A stretch of DNA of 64,000 nt. Origin: Prosthecobacter sp. SYSU 5D2 (GTDB lineage: Bacteria; Verrucomicrobiota; Verrucomicrobiia; Verrucomicrobiales; Verrucomicrobiaceae). The stretch lies in the NCBI RefSeq assembly GCF_039655865.1, contig NZ_JBBYXL010000008.1, positions 186,001-250,000 on the forward strand, written 5' to 3'. Position numbers and translations under genes: made by a program. Of the stretch, positions 5,308 to 62,934 are shown piece by piece (positions within the stretch are counted from its first letter, which is position 1; every line of letters begins with the position of its first letter). The notes under the pieces were generated by a model. It worked only from the letters and a program-made list of their open reading frames with translations. It searched no databases and was not told the origin of the DNA.

Positions 5308-6150
5308 ATGAACCTGCGCTTCCCTTTCCTTTTGTCCGTCCTTTTGACCACCTGCGCCCTGGAGGCCGAGATGCCGGAGGCGCTGCCGCTTTGGGAAAAA
5401 GGGGCACCGGGATCGGAGGGGAGGATGGCGGAGGCGGAGCGGACGGAGGGGAAGAATGTGGTGAATGTCCACAGCCCGTCCATCACGCCTTTTATTCCGG
5501 CCAAGGACGGCACGGGCGTGGCGGTGATCATTGCGCCGGGCGGCGGGCATTCGAAGCTGTGCCTGGGGCATGAAGGGTATGCGCTGGCGGAGTGGTTCCA
5601 GGCGCGCGGCATCGCGGCCTTTGTGCTGAAGTACCGGCTGGCCCGCGAAAAGGGCAGCACCTATACCATCCAGGACCACGCGATGGCGGACATGCGCCGG
5701 GCCATCCGTACGGTGCGGACGCGGGCCAAGGACTGGGGAATCAATCCAGAGCGCATCGGCGTGCTGGGCTTTTCCGCAGGCGGCGAGCTGGCAGCGTTTG
5801 CGGCGATGAAGAATGATCCGGGCAATGCCGAAGCGACGGAGGTCATCGAGCAGGCCAGCAGCCGGCCGGATTTCCAGGCGCTGATTTATCCGGGCACCTC
5901 CGGCCTGTTCTCAGCGGAAAAGGGCATGCCGCCGCTGTTCATCGCCTGTGGTTACGGCGACCGCCCGGACATCGCCGAAGGCATGGCCACGCTGTATCTG
6001 AAATACAAGGCTGCCGGAGTGAAGGCGGAGCTGCACATTTACAGCAATGCCGGCCATGGCTTCGGCTACAAACCCGATTCGACCACCGCCGCCGGCCGCT
6101 GGCCGGAAAGGTTCACGGAATGGCTGCAGGACAGCGGGCTGCTGAAGTGA
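5308..6150 (+). CDS. Secreted alpha/beta hydrolase (acetyl-xylan-esterase-like)
   Basis: A 280-aa hydrolase with an N-terminal signal peptide (MNLRFPFLLSVLLTTCALEA); the Cys near the cleavage region could make it a lipoprotein. The oxyanion loop is IIAPGGGHSKL, the nucleophile elbow GFSAGGE, a likely Asp lies in ACGYGDRPDIAEG, and the His in SNAGHGFGYKP. This is the arrangement of the BD-FAE/esterase-lipase family, often active on acetylated polysaccharides. It lies 74 bp after recQ and upstream of the DUF1501 pair. A carbohydrate-esterase role is inference from family and context. Confidence 0.85.
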   Translation: MNLRFPFLLSVLLTTCALEAEMPEALPLWEKGAPGSEGRMAEAERTEGKNVVNVHSPSITPFIPAKDGTGVAVIIAPGGGHSKLCLGHEGYALAEWFQARGIAAFVLKYRLAREKGSTYTIQDHAMADMRRAIRTVRTRAKDWGINPERIGVLGFSAGGELAAFAAMKNDPGNAEATEVIEQASSRPDFQALIYPGTSGLFSAEKGMPPLFIACGYGDRPDIAEGMATLYLKYKAAGVKAELHIYSNAGHGFGYKPDSTTAAGRWPERFTEWLQDSGLLK

Positions 6151-6196
6151 GGGGGCAACGTCTTGACATTCGGGGATCTGACATCACTTTTTTTGC

Positions 6197-6346
6197 ATGG
6201 AAACCGAAGCTGATACGCCGCCGAAAATCCAGGCCAAGCTGGATGAAGCTGCCCATGGTACCTTTATGGAAGGCAGCCGCGCTTCCATCGAACTCATCAT
6301 CGCCCGCAGCGGAGGCGAGACCTCGACGAACGCCTCTGAAAAATAG
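6197..6346 (+). CDS. Possible 49-aa small protein
   Basis: An ATG at 6197 opens a 49-codon frame ending with TAG at 6344-6346 (starts METEADTPPKIQAKLDEAAH, ends in STNASEK). The product is hydrophilic and acidic with no recognised family. A perfect TTGACA lies at 6163-6168, but I see no good -10 hexamer at the right distance. It fills the gap between the esterase and DUF1501 genes. Codon choice resembles the neighbours. No homology was available, so confidence is low. Confidence 0.4.
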   Translation: METEADTPPKIQAKLDEAAHGTFMEGSRASIELIIARSGGETSTNASEK

Positions 6347-6396
6347 GTTTCCCTATTGTCTCAACTTTGGTTAGAACCTCTTTGCTGGCGGCGTCT

Positions 6397-7818
6397 ATGT
6401 CCGCAGCAGAGATGAGCGCTGATTTCCATCCAGTACTGTCGCGACGCCGGTTCATCGGCGGGGCGGGCGTGGGCTTGTCCAGCGTCGCGTTTTCGCATCT
6501 GCTGGGAGCGGAGGCGATGGGCGCGAGCACGGGCGGGCAGCGGTCGCATTTTCCGGCGAAGGCGAAGCGGGTGATCTGGCTGTTCATGCACGGCGGGCCC
6601 AGCCATGTGGATTTGTTTGATCCCAAGCCGGAGCTGATCCGCCATGCGGGCAGGCCGCTGCCGGAGAGTTTTGGCCCGGTGGAGACGCGGCGGAAGGTGG
6701 CGCAAAATCCGCTGCTGGGGCCGGTGAAACCGTTCCGGCCACGCGGGAGGAGCGGCATCGAGATCAGCGATTTCCTGCCGCACATGGCGGAGCTGGCGGA
6801 TGAGATGTGTGTGATCCGAAGCTGCCACGGGGACAGCGTGAACCATCCGCAGAGCGTGTACCAGATGAATACGGGCTCCATCCTGATGGGCAAGCCGAGC
6901 CTGGGGAGCTGGGTGGCGTATGGCCTGGGGTCGGACAATCAGAACATGCCGTCCTTTGTGGTGATGCCGGATCCTGGCGGCGGGCTCAAGGGCGGGCCGC
7001 CGGCGTGGGGCAACGGCTTCCTTCCGGCCACGTATCAGGGCACAACGATGCGGCCAGGTGAGAACCCGATTTTGCATCTGAACCCGGCCCATGACCGCAG
7101 CCCGGCCCGGCAGCGGGCGACGCTGGACCTGGTGAACCGCTTCAATGCCCTGCACCAGGAACGGCGCGGGGAGGACACGCATCTGGATGCGCGCATCCGC
7201 TCTTATGAACTGGCTTTCCGGATGCAAACAGCGGCCCCGGATACAGTGGACCTGTCCCAGGAATCCGAGGCGACGAAAAACCTCTACGGCCTGGACCAGC
7301 CCGTGACGCGGGAGTTTGGCACACGCTGCCTGCTGGCGCGGCGGATGATCGAGCGCGGCGTGCGATTTGTGCAGCTTTATTCCGGCGATACCAATGGCTG
7401 GGATGCGCATGAGGACGTGCTGAAAAATCACACCGACTACGCCGCCCGGACCGACAAACCGGTGGCCGGCCTGATCCGCGATCTCAAGCAGCGCGGCCTG
7501 CTGGAGGACACGCTGGTCATTTGGGGCGGCGAGTTTGGCCGCATGCCGATGAGCGAAAAAGGCGTGGGCCGCGACCACAATCCGTGGGGTTACTCGACCG
7601 TGCTTTTTGGTGCCGGTGTGAAGCATGGCCATGTGCACGGAGCCACGGATGACATCGGCCTGCGGGCGGTGCATGACAAGGTGCATGTGCATGACCTGCA
7701 TGCCACGATTTTGCATCTCCTGGGCATGGATCACGAAAGCCTGACCTACCGCCACAATGGCCGTGACGAGCGGCTGACGGATGTGGCCGGTCATGTGGTG
7801 AAAGGCATCCTTACCTGA
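6397..7818 (+). CDS. DUF1501 family secreted protein (sulfatase-like fold)
   Basis: The start ATG at 6397 was chosen over a TTG at 6367; another ATG at 6412 is possible. The N-terminus has a twin-arginine-like signal (LSRRRFIGGAGVGLSS). The body has the DUF1501 landmarks: VIWLFMHGGPSHVDLFDPKP near the start, DNQNMPSFVV, the RCLLARRMIERGVRFVQLY block, and WGGEFGRMP with GRDHNPWGYS near the end. DUF1501 proteins are related to the alkaline phosphatase/sulfatase superfamily, are abundant in Planctomycetes and Verrucomicrobia, and typically pair with DUF1549/DUF1553 genes. The next gene is exactly such a partner, 5 bp downstream. The substrate is unknown. Confidence 0.93.
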   Translation: MSAAEMSADFHPVLSRRRFIGGAGVGLSSVAFSHLLGAEAMGASTGGQRSHFPAKAKRVIWLFMHGGPSHVDLFDPKPELIRHAGRPLPESFGPVETRRKVAQNPLLGPVKPFRPRGRSGIEISDFLPHMAELADEMCVIRSCHGDSVNHPQSVYQMNTGSILMGKPSLGSWVAYGLGSDNQNMPSFVVMPDPGGGLKGGPPAWGNGFLPATYQGTTMRPGENPILHLNPAHDRSPARQRATLDLVNRFNALHQERRGEDTHLDARIRSYELAFRMQTAAPDTVDLSQESEATKNLYGLDQPVTREFGTRCLLARRMIERGVRFVQLYSGDTNGWDAHEDVLKNHTDYAARTDKPVAGLIRDLKQRGLLEDTLVIWGGEFGRMPMSEKGVGRDHNPWGYSTVLFGAGVKHGHVHGATDDIGLRAVHDKVHVHDLHATILHLLGMDHESLTYRHNGRDERLTDVAGHVVKGILT

Positions 7819-54159: not shown

Positions 54160-55665
54160 TTACATGCCCTTGTTGTAGATCAGCCAGGCCACACCCACCA
54201 GGGTGATGACGGCGATCCCGGACCAGAGCATGACCACGGTGGCCGGATTGGCCACATTGCCGCTCTGCTGCATGCGGTCGAAACGGCCACGGATGCGGCC
54301 CTTCTTCAGGAAGCCGTCATAATGGCTCTGCAGGAGGTGCGTTTCAATCTGGCGCATGACGTCAAGGACGACACCGACAAGAATCAGCAGGCTGGTGCCG
54401 CCGAAGAACTGGGCAGTCTGTGGCGCAATACCCAGGCCGGCACTGACCAGACCTGGCATGATGAAAAGGAAGGTCAGGAAAATGGCACCAGCGAAAGTGA
54501 GGCGGCTCATCGTGAAGTCCAGGAAATCAGCCGTCGGCTTGCCAGGGCGGATGCCAGGGATGTAACCACCGCTCTTCTTGAGGTCTTCCGAGATCTGCGT
54601 GGGCTGGAACATAGTGGCCACCCAGAAATAGCTGAAGAAGAAAATCAAGGCACCGGAGATGGCATAATAAACCCAGCCGGAGGCGATGGCCTGGGAGAAG
54701 CGCTGTACCCAGCCCACATCCGGGAACATGGAGGAGATAATGGAGGAAGGGAACAGCAGGATGGCCTGGGCAAAGATGATCGGCATCACACCGGAATAAT
54801 TGATCTTCAGGGGCAGATACTGCGTCTGGCCGCCATAAACCTTCCGGCCGACCACGCGCTTGGCATACTGGATGACAATCCGCCGGGTGGCCTGGGTAAG
54901 GGCGATGACCCCTGCGATGACCAAAATCATGAAGGCTAACAGCAACACCAGCGTGGCCGGCTTGCTCATGTCACCGTCCACATTGCCGACGTAGGTCTGC
55001 CAGACCTGCACCATGGCACCAGGGAGATCAGAGACGATGTTCACACAGATCAGCAGGGAGACACCGTTGCCGATGCCGCGCTCAGTGATCATTTCACCCA
55101 GCCACATCATCAGCATCGTACCAGCCGTGATGGTGATGACCGTGGTAAAAACAAACCCCATGTTAAAGTCAGGTACCAATGGCCGCCCCAGGCGATCAAT
55201 CGTGTCCTGCAAACCACCGAGGAAGATGTTCTGGCCGGGATTCTCCAGCGACTGTGCCAGAAGGTAACCCTGAAACACGCAAAGCGCGATGGTGGCCAAG
55301 CGGGTGTATTGGGTGATCTTCTGCCGTCCGCCGTCTTCACGGGCCAGCTTGCTCAGCTTCGGCACCACTGCCGTGAGCAGCTGCATCATGATGGATGCCG
55401 AAATGTAAGGCATGATGCCCAGGGCGAAAATCGCACAGTTCTGCAATCCTCCACCACTGAAGACGTTCAGCAAAGCAGCAACCTGGGCAGCTCCGGAGCC
55501 GGCATCAGCCGTGCGGTTCTTGATCCATTCATCCAGCACGGTCACGTCCACACCAGGCAGGGTGATGGAAGCACCGATGCGCACAATGACGATCATCGCC
55601 AGAGTGAAAAGGATGCGCGAGCGTAGGTCAGGAATTTTGAAGCTGTTGGCGAAGGCAGAAATCAT
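54160..55665 (-). CDS. secY: Preprotein translocase subunit SecY
   Basis: A 501-aa, about ten-helix channel of the Sec translocon, longer than E. coli SecY (443 aa). Family marks include FSGGGLQNCAIFALGIMPYI, RLATIALCVFQGYLLAQSL, TAGTMLMMWLGEMITERGIG and AKRVVGRKVYGGQTQYLPLK. The N-terminus is MISAFANSFKIPDLRSRI, with the first membrane segment directly after. It follows rplO with a 96-bp gap that contains a strong hairpin. Confidence 0.96.
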   Translation of the reverse strand: MISAFANSFKIPDLRSRILFTLAMIVIVRIGASITLPGVDVTVLDEWIKNRTADAGSGAAQVAALLNVFSGGGLQNCAIFALGIMPYISASIMMQLLTAVVPKLSKLAREDGGRQKITQYTRLATIALCVFQGYLLAQSLENPGQNIFLGGLQDTIDRLGRPLVPDFNMGFVFTTVITITAGTMLMMWLGEMITERGIGNGVSLLICVNIVSDLPGAMVQVWQTYVGNVDGDMSKPATLVLLLAFMILVIAGVIALTQATRRIVIQYAKRVVGRKVYGGQTQYLPLKINYSGVMPIIFAQAILLFPSSIISSMFPDVGWVQRFSQAIASGWVYYAISGALIFFFSYFWVATMFQPTQISEDLKKSGGYIPGIRPGKPTADFLDFTMSRLTFAGAIFLTFLFIMPGLVSAGLGIAPQTAQFFGGTSLLILVGVVLDVMRQIETHLLQSHYDGFLKKGRIRGRFDRMQQSGNVANPATVVMLWSGIAVITLVGVAWLIYNKGM

Positions 55666-60547: not shown

Positions 60548-61390
60548 TTACTGGGCTGCAGGGGCTGCCTCGGCAGGGGCTGCGGCAGGAGCCGGAGCGG
60601 AGGACTGCTGGTAGGAGGACTGTCCACCCTGCTGATAACGTGGCGGGCCGGAGCGCTCACCACCGCGACGTCCGATGCCGCCGGCACCACCGCCACCACC
60701 ACCAGGGCCGCTGTTGCGGTCGCCACGCTCACGACGGCGGTCGTTACGCGGAGTGGTGTTTTCAGGGGCATTGCCACGGTTCATCCAGACTTTCACGCCG
60801 ATGATGCCGTAAACGGTGCGGGCTTCGGTGAAGCCGTAATCAATCGGGATACGCAGGGTCTGGAGAGGCACTTTGCCCTGACGATACTGCTCAGCACGGG
60901 CGATGTCGGCACCGCCGAGACGGCCGGCGACGCGGATACGGATGCCTTCGCCGCCCATTTCCATGGCGGTCTGGACAGCCCGCTTCATGGCGCGGCGGAA
61001 GGAAATACGGCGCTCCAGCTGGACGGCGACGCTTTCAGCAATGAGCTGGGCATCAAGCTCAGGCTGCTTGATCTCAAAGATGTCAATCTTGACCTGCTTG
61101 CCACCGCACATTTCGGAGACTTTCTGGCTCATCACTTCGATCTCCTGGCCTTTACGGCCGATCACCAGACCCGGACGGGCGGTGTGGAGGGTCACGCGGA
61201 CCTGGTTCCAGGCGCGCTCGATGATGATCTTCGACAAGGCGGCCTGCATGAGCTTGTCCTTGAGGTACTTGCGGATGGCAAGGTCGCTATGCAGAGCATC
61301 GGCGTATTCTTTCTCCGGAGCATACCACTTGGAGCGCCAGTCTTTGGTGACTGCGAGGCGGAAGCCGATTGGATTAACTTTCTGTCCCAT
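60548..61390 (-). CDS. rpsC: 30S ribosomal protein S3 with long low-complexity tail
   Basis: A 280-aa protein; residues 1-204 are typical S3 (MGQKVNPIGFRLAVTKDWRS, the KH domain around VIGRKGQEIEVM, then GGADIARAEQYRQGKVPLQT). Residues about 205-280 are an unusual tail rich in Gly, Arg, Gln, Pro and Ala (GPGGGGGGAGGIGRRGG, then SSAPAPAAAPAEAAPAAQ). E. coli S3 has 233 aa. The tail is probably disordered and might bind RNA. Confidence 0.96.
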   Translation of the reverse strand: MGQKVNPIGFRLAVTKDWRSKWYAPEKEYADALHSDLAIRKYLKDKLMQAALSKIIIERAWNQVRVTLHTARPGLVIGRKGQEIEVMSQKVSEMCGGKQVKIDIFEIKQPELDAQLIAESVAVQLERRISFRRAMKRAVQTAMEMGGEGIRIRVAGRLGGADIARAEQYRQGKVPLQTLRIPIDYGFTEARTVYGIIGVKVWMNRGNAPENTTPRNDRRRERGDRNSGPGGGGGGAGGIGRRGGERSGPPRYQQGGQSSYQQSSAPAPAAAPAEAAPAAQ

Positions 61391-61417: not shown

Positions 61418-61822
61418 TTATTCGGCGGCAGCGGTGGCGGCCTTGGCCTTTGGAGACCGGTTTTTGCGGACGGGCTTTTCAGCCTCTTCCGGCTTGGCAC
61501 CCAGGATGACGGTGATGTGCGTCATGCGCTTTTTGATGGGTGATGCAGAACCGCGAGCACGTGGCGTGATGCGCTTCAGGGCAGGCCCTGGAGTGGCGAC
61601 GGCACTGCGGACGACGAGTTCCTCGGCATCCAGTTCGTGATTGTTTTCTGCATTGGCCACAGCCGAACGCAGCACTTTTCCCACCAGGAAAGCGGCCTTC
61701 TTCGGAGTGAAGTCGAGGACGCTGAGAGCCTGTGACACCGGCATACCGGTGATTGCCCGTGTAACTTGACGCGCCTTCTGCGACGAGATTCGGGCGTATT
61801 TATAGATTGAACGCACTTCCAT
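61418..61822 (-). CDS. rplV: 50S ribosomal protein L22
   Basis: A 134-aa protein lining the exit tunnel. Landmarks are MEVRSIYKYARISSQKARQV, then LDFTPKKAAFLVGKVLRSAV and GSASPIKKRMTHITVILG. The C-terminus has a short basic/Ala extension (RKNRSPKAKAATAAAE). Its start codon lies only 4 bp after the stop of an unrelated secreted-protein gene. Confidence 0.96.
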   Translation of the reverse strand: MEVRSIYKYARISSQKARQVTRAITGMPVSQALSVLDFTPKKAAFLVGKVLRSAVANAENNHELDAEELVVRSAVATPGPALKRITPRARGSASPIKKRMTHITVILGAKPEEAEKPVRKNRSPKAKAATAAAE

Positions 61823-61826
61823 AACC

Positions 61827-62621
61827 TTAGAATGATCTGTTGATATCCACTTTGCCTCTGTCTCCGACCTTCACCGGATCAGTTGCGTTTGCTAACTCCT
61901 GAACCACTGCACCGCTGACAGAGCTGCGCACTTCAGTGACGAGGATTTTCGCGATGGGTTTGTCCTCGCGGTAAATTTCAAAGGGCATCCCCGGCTTGAC
62001 GCCGTCACGGGACCCCACGGACAGGACGGCGATGCCGAGATCCTGTTTGAGACTGACAACCCGCGCATCCATAAGGCTGGCGGTTTCAGCTCCTGCCAGT
62101 TCAGCCTCTGGGGCTGCGGCGGCGGTGAGAACCTGCTCGGCAGCGGCGATGGCCTTGGACAGGCGATCGCTGGCGGCGGCATCAGGTGTCTGCACCGTGT
62201 TGGCAAACTGGAGGGAGGCTTCTGCCAGCTCCATCAGCCCTTCCGCCAGCTTCTGGCGGGATGTTTCAGCGATGCGGAGATCGCTGAGGGAAGCGAGGAG
62301 GCGCTCCTGCGTCTCCCCAGTTGAGTTTTCCAGGGCGGCGATGCCCAGGCCTTCCAAAAGACCGCGAAGTCTTTCGTAACGGTCCTTCAGCTCAGTCGCT
62401 TCCTGGTTGGCTGCCGCAGCACTCTGCGTCAGCGCATCATTTTTGTCCTTGGCAGCCGCAAGCTGAGATTCCAGAGCCTGGATCTTCTGGGCGGCCACCT
62501 GCAGCGTCATGTTCAGCTCCTGCACCTCAAAGGACTGCGCCTGTGCACCGCCCAGCATCACCACCACTGCCAGAAGCAGCGTAGCGCACGGGTTAAAACG
62601 GTGGTGGAGGCGGGAGATCAT
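61827..62621 (-). CDS. Secreted coiled-coil protein embedded between rpsS and rplV
   Basis: A 264-aa protein from ATG 62621 (the frame is open to 62654). A signal peptide (CATLLLAVVVMLGGAQAQ, cleavage about residue 29) is followed by a coiled coil (about 32-95: TLQVAAQKIQALESQLAAAK). A helical middle (about 100-180) precedes a C-terminal domain of about 75 residues (LGIAVLSVGSRDGVKPGMPF, then EIYREDKPIAKILVTEV) resembling the FlgT C-terminal/OB-like type. It is not a ribosomal protein. It lies 34 bp after rpsS and 4 bp before rplV, so it is very likely co-transcribed with them. A periplasmic role is inferred from the leader; its function is unknown. Confidence 0.85.
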   Translation of the reverse strand: MISRLHHRFNPCATLLLAVVVMLGGAQAQSFEVQELNMTLQVAAQKIQALESQLAAAKDKNDALTQSAAAANQEATELKDRYERLRGLLEGLGIAALENSTGETQERLLASLSDLRIAETSRQKLAEGLMELAEASLQFANTVQTPDAAASDRLSKAIAAAEQVLTAAAAPEAELAGAETASLMDARVVSLKQDLGIAVLSVGSRDGVKPGMPFEIYREDKPIAKILVTEVRSSVSGAVVQELANATDPVKVGDRGKVDINRSF

Positions 62622-62655: not shown

Positions 62656-62934
62656 TTACTTGGCGGCCTTGACGGTGTGAGCGCCGTGGCCCTTGAACAG
62701 ACGGGTCAGGGCGAATTCGCCGAGACGGTGACCGACCATGTTTTCCGTGACGTAAACGCTCACGAAGTCCTTGCCGTTGTGCACCAGGAAGGTGTGACCG
62801 ACAAGGTCAGGGGTGATCATTGAACTGCGGGCCCAGGTTTTAATCGGGCGCTTCTGTCCAGCGTCGTTGAGCTTGTCCACTTTGTCGAGCAGGGCTTGCT
62901 GGACGAACGGGCCTTTTTTGAGTGAGCGTGCCAT
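62656..62934 (-). CDS. rpsS: 30S ribosomal protein S19
   Basis: A 92-aa protein of the small-subunit head. Landmarks are [20 protein letters not shown], then [20 protein letters not shown] and [19 protein letters not shown]. Its downstream neighbour in transcription is not rplV but the embedded secreted-protein gene. Confidence 0.97.

Follow-up and report, generated by a model that had tools for sequence, protein, structure and literature searches.

A gene for a predicted exported coiled-coil protein lies upstream of rplV in the S10 operon across Verrucomicrobiota

The window, that is, the whole stretch of 64,000 nucleotides analysed in this study, carries a ribosomal-protein gene cluster on its minus strand. 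The genes run in the order rplB, rpsS, an additional gene (hereafter the insert gene), rplV, and rpsC, and onward through S10/spc genes; secY (window 54160-55665) belongs to the adjoining spc operon. Few stretches of bacterial gene order are as well conserved as that around rpsS-rplV. The features of the locus, in window coordinates, are as follows.

63805 to 62966, minus strand: rplB, upstream of rpsS
62656 to 62934, minus strand: rpsS (S19), upstream neighbour of the insert gene (Pfam Ribosomal_S19, E=8.5e-36)
61827 to 62621, minus strand: insert gene, 264 aa, ATG start, for a putatively exported coiled-coil/beta-domain protein (open reading frame and translation)
62538 to 62621, minus strand: predicted signal peptide, residues 1-28, with a cleavage-like site between AQA and Q (read by eye from the translation)
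62199 to 62534, minus strand: long helix, probably a coiled coil, residues 30-141 (AlphaFold2, pLDDT mostly about 90)
61845 to 62072, minus strand: C-terminal FlgT-C/MreC-like beta domain, residues ~184-259 (AlphaFold2 and Foldseek)
61418 to 61822, minus strand: rplV (L22), the gene after the insert and its stable partner in evolution (Pfam Ribosomal_L22, E=7.7e-37)
60548 to 61390, minus strand: rpsC (S3), next operon gene after rplV

The original prediction described a 264-aa gene between rpsS and rplV with spacings of 34 and 4 nt. Re-reading of the sequence returned exactly these gaps, 34 nt to rpsS and 4 nt to rplV, and both neighbours were identified by Pfam. The insert gene is present as a single copy in its genome. 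The S3 protein encoded farther downstream (window 60548-61390) is extended at its C-terminus by a long stretch rich in Gly, Ala, Pro, and Gln (RRERGDRNSGPGGGGG...APAAAPAEAAPAAQ).

The N-terminus of the insert protein, MISRLHHRFNPCATLLLAVVVMLGGAQA followed by QS, resembles a cleavable signal peptide; the stretch ends in GGAQA immediately before QS. AlphaFold2, supplied with an alignment of 20 homologs, predicted two helices, at residues 30-141 and 148-169, and a beta domain at residues ~186-258, with pLDDT values mostly of 87-96. The overall pTM was low (0.39), as is expected when a long helix is joined to a small domain. In a Foldseek search of the PDB, FlgT structures took the first two ranks (8z5n_0, E=5.5e-5; 3w1e, E=5.8e-5; probability 1.00) and MreC the third (2j5u, E=2.4e-4); the whole-query TM-scores were low because the alignment covers the domain alone. 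FlgT is an H-ring protein of Vibrio, TsaP has a similar domain, and both FlgT and MreC are periplasmic. Model searches of Pfam, NCBIfam, and PHROGs revealed no family that claims the insert protein: it fell below the cut-off of the Pfam model FlgT_C (PF16538) and had no match above the cut-off to MreC (PF04085) in Pfam or NCBIfam. A phage origin was rejected, since PHROGs gave no meaningful match. The "FlgT-C-like" end of the original prediction is therefore upheld at the level of the fold, where FlgT ranked first, and not at the level of the Pfam FlgT_C model. Its wider description, of an exported coiled-coil protein whose gene lies within the S10 operon, is likewise supported, the gene being co-directional with its neighbours and closely packed among them.

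The structural matches to FlgT and MreC could mean that the elongasome has in this protein another scaffold resembling MreC, or that it belongs to a flagellar or pilus ring of the FlgT/TsaP kind, and weak sequence matches to TsaP (E=0.11) and MreC (E=2e-4) point the same way. However, a genuine mreC adjoins mreB elsewhere in the genome (contig C3), hhalign with the genome's own MreC aligned the coil only, and the FlgT_C model stayed below its cut-off in this genome. FlhA, moreover, is absent here and from 9/13 other tested insert-carrying genomes. We consider this reading very unlikely. Two narrower candidates, replacement of mreC by the insert gene and a flagellar role as the reason for its conservation, were rejected on the grounds of the true mreC beside mreB and of the missing FlhA, respectively.

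Homologs of the insert protein were found in 53/56 relatives (44/44 good-quality genomes), spanning 14 genera. When the rpsS-rplV interval was read in loci fetched via rpsS, independently of the insert, the gene occupied it throughout Verrucomicrobiaceae and Akkermansiaceae; it was also present in Roseibacillus and Akkermansia (235-248 aa), A. muciniphila (L044) among them. A short form of 105-117 aa, composed of a signal peptide and the beta domain with no coil, occupies the same slot in some Opitutaceae; short forms belonging to the Opitutales-like branch lack the coiled-coil helix. The long and short forms matched each other over the beta domain in hhalign (probability 96.6%, E=4.9e-10, 75 columns), and by this alignment they are homologous. 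The Foldseek match of the short form to the FlgT fold was weaker (E=4.9e-3). A hydrophobic N-terminal segment, be it a signal peptide, lipobox, or anchor, is found in nearly all homologs, and the beta domain is the conserved core of the family. With coil lengths that range from none to very long, the family has no one conserved partner geometry.

In the sampled loci of other phyla (Bacteroidota, Gemmatimonadota, Rokubacteria, Acidobacteriota, Nitrospirota, and others), only 15-151 nt separate rpsS from rplV. The rplV and rpsS genes of Chlamydia trachomatis bear the consecutive tags CTL0785 and CTL0786 (PMC8762339). The literature search found no paper on an insert between rpsS and rplV. The original prediction had also considered a gene missing from relatives and unconserved; the gene was instead found to be kept phylum-wide in the rplV slot. 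Assembly error and chance or recent insertion are ruled out by its phylum-wide occurrence, its single copy, and the purifying selection described below.

A further 80 loci were obtained from genomes drawn phylum-wide by their L22 gene and from order-level relatives. Among the 65 of these (L127-L191) that were drawn via rplV and not via the insert gene, the insert lies directly upstream of rplV in 38 and not in the other 27. By family code, 33/47 sampled Verrucomicrobiota families, including that of Akkermansia, possess the insert gene and 14/47 do not; these counts are descriptive and do not represent a random sample, as one or a few loci were chosen per family. The gene for the putatively exported protein in the rpsS-rplV slot has a conserved operon position across the phylum. 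With 14/47 sampled families lacking it, it is not essential throughout the phylum. Three loci (L138, L142, and L185) have an rpsS-rplV gap of 213-313 nt with no recognisable insert gene; pseudogene remnants were sought in these gaps, and none were recognised. In two genomes of one genus, the L22 domain lies inside a 426-codon open frame, ~3 times the usual length (G124:C54:14730-15038 and G171:C1:934352-934660), which may reflect an extended or fused L22.

The surroundings of the insert gene change in some lineages. Seventeen loci (within L157-L190), most of them from a single deep clade, lack an upstream rpsS. The rpsS gene is located elsewhere in the genome in 17/17 of these cases (in G166, for example, it is on the same contig at a distance of 37 kb), and the upstream flank of the insert is made up of unrelated genes that differ from genome to genome. 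The insert is nevertheless kept 1-101 nt before rplV in 15 of the 17 loci with a displaced rpsS, which indicates that the stable partner of the insert is rplV together with the genes that follow it, and not rpsS. One such locus (L188) falls in a different clade from the others in a tree of L22 and S3, suggesting that the split between rpsS and insert-rplV occurred at least twice.

In the same L22+S3 tree (103 rows), the insert gene is found in all main branches, and 16 presence/absence changes are needed; rpsC and rplV share a strand in 103/103 loci. Such counts alone do not separate gain from loss. Given homologous sequences at an identical site, early presence with repeated loss would be the simpler history. 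The placement directly upstream of rplV probably predates the divergence of most sampled Verrucomicrobiota lineages. Pairwise distances of the beta domain track those of L22+S3 (Mantel test, Spearman rho 0.54, 66 rows, 0/999 permutations as high), as expected if the insert gene is inherited vertically, and on this measure it is. Its dN/dS was 0.03-0.13 in 12 of 13 computable relative pairs and 0.30 in one Akkermansia pair, compared with 0.00-0.09 for rpsS, rplV, and rpsC. These ratios indicate that the insert gene is under purifying selection.

The history could also be that of a frozen accident, in which an ordinary envelope gene landed early and stays because excision that spares rplV is rare, its position having no regulatory meaning. 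This would agree with the ordinary codon usage of the insert, with its absence from the 14 families, and with its patchy absence from others, where often just a short gap is left. On the other hand, the protein is under purifying selection, clean losses seem to be repeated, so that excision is not prohibited, and the insert stayed with rplV when the operon broke. Retention with rplV after breakage is hard to explain by inertia alone, and we regard a frozen accident as rather unlikely.

On the coding strand from rplB to rpsC (rplB-rpsS-insert-rplV-rpsC), no promoter-like or terminator-like sites were found; together with the spacing, the absence of intervening sites is consistent with co-transcription of the insert with the ribosomal-protein genes. 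Translational coupling through the 4-nt gap, as originally proposed, finds no support as a general feature: that gap is peculiar to close relatives, the distance elsewhere is 1-101 nt, and the spacing is not conserved. The codon-usage score, computed on window genes only, was -0.056 for the insert and 0.00 to +0.15 for ribosomal proteins, with a background mean of -0.12 (sd 0.09). The codon usage of the insert is thus between that of background and ribosomal-protein genes and is not ribosomal-protein-like; dosage by ribosomal-protein-like codon usage was not seen in the insert. Considering this codon usage and a dS that is usually above that of the neighbour genes, the insert is probably translated less, or made in smaller amounts, than its neighbours. 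In a transcriptome of A. muciniphila, some ribosomal genes in the Amuc_0296-0304 range were upregulated (PMC13335675).

The insert might also act in cis, its translation or export setting the output of rplV, either as a stalling leader like SecM, VemP, or MifM or through a signal peptide that draws the polycistronic mRNA to the membrane. L22 lines the ribosome exit tunnel, and its synthesis would in this case respond to export capacity. Arrest leaders are exported proteins encoded directly upstream of their target gene, a likeness that favours the idea, as do the passage of the insert with rplV, not rpsS, through operon breakage and an N-terminal export signal that is the most constant feature besides the beta domain. 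However, purifying selection acts on the folded C-terminal domain, the C-terminal tail is variable across homologs and shows no arrest-like motif, and the intergenic spacing is not conserved. In 24 loci, RNA folding around the starts of rplV and of the insert revealed no excess structure (for rplV, mean z 0.24, with 2/24 below -2), which likewise speaks against cis-regulation; an RNA attenuator at the rplV start was rejected on this result. Control of rplV by export of the insert is highly improbable in our judgement, as is the response of L22 synthesis to export capacity that it entails. If true, it would give the phylum a previously unknown means of adjusting ribosome production to the capacity of the envelope.

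The explanation that we prefer, with a probability of roughly 0.6, is that the insert gene encodes a periplasmic envelope scaffold that is co-transcribed with the rplV cluster and whose supply tracks growth rate. The product would be exported via Sec to the periplasm, and would most likely serve the cell envelope as a structural element or scaffold. Its coiled coil may oligomerise or set spacing, and its beta domain may dock onto an envelope machine or another subunit. With expression tied to the rplV-rpsC ribosomal transcript, its supply would scale with growth rate; secY in the adjoining spc operon would be a precedent in the same cluster. Against this explanation stand a codon usage unlike that of ribosomal-protein genes, the 14 sampled families without the gene, and the variable coil length. 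From this arrangement we infer a possible link between envelope growth and translation capacity. The original observation of the gene is confirmed, and the sequence evidence makes it considerably stronger than first stated. Envelope building and ribosome making may run from one transcript. The whole phylum, including Akkermansia, appears to hold an uncharacterised exported protein at rpsS-rplV that is carried along with rplV. This family, which has no Pfam or NCBIfam model, offers a concrete way into the question of how cells match envelope growth to their translation capacity, and it gives genetic work in A. muciniphila or culturable relatives a defined target.

The genome also contains two tandem TM-anchored coiled-coil paralogs (G000:C12:135667-137568; L238, about 5668-7587) and a weaker paralog at C6:30965. 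A tandem pair similar to the C12 pair is found in a distant genome (G061:C8:75599-77089). Since the paralogs coexist with the insert gene in this genome, they are treated as a separate group, and their compensating for loss of the insert was rejected. TM-anchored Verrucomicrobiota paralogs resemble the insert protein in having a coiled coil and a C-terminal beta domain (A4 profile, E down to 4.4e-15), but their N-terminal anchor is uncleaved, and they are encoded elsewhere, also in genomes without the operon gene.

Among known systems, FlgT is likewise exported and has the beta-domain fold in common (Foldseek E=5.8e-5 to 3w1e, for the aligned part only), whereas the insert protein possesses a long coil in place of the FlgT N and M domains, leaves the FlgT_C model (PF16538) unmatched, and is encoded in a genome without FlhA. 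MreC (PF04085) has a similar layout, with an N-terminal membrane or signal segment, a coiled coil, and then a beta fold (2j5u, E=2.4e-4); it differs in having two beta barrels and in sitting with mreB, whereas the insert gene sits in the S10 operon. The SecM/VemP/MifM leaders share with the insert the encoding of an exported protein directly upstream of the gene that it would control; the insert, however, has a folded and conserved C-terminal domain and shows neither a conserved C-terminal motif nor an RNA switch. Finally, SecY is the translocon itself and is encoded in an spc-type operon in most bacteria, whereas the insert product would be an exported protein and is confined, as far as sampled, to one phylum; common to both is an export-related gene that is, or in the case of the insert may be, transcribed with ribosomal proteins.
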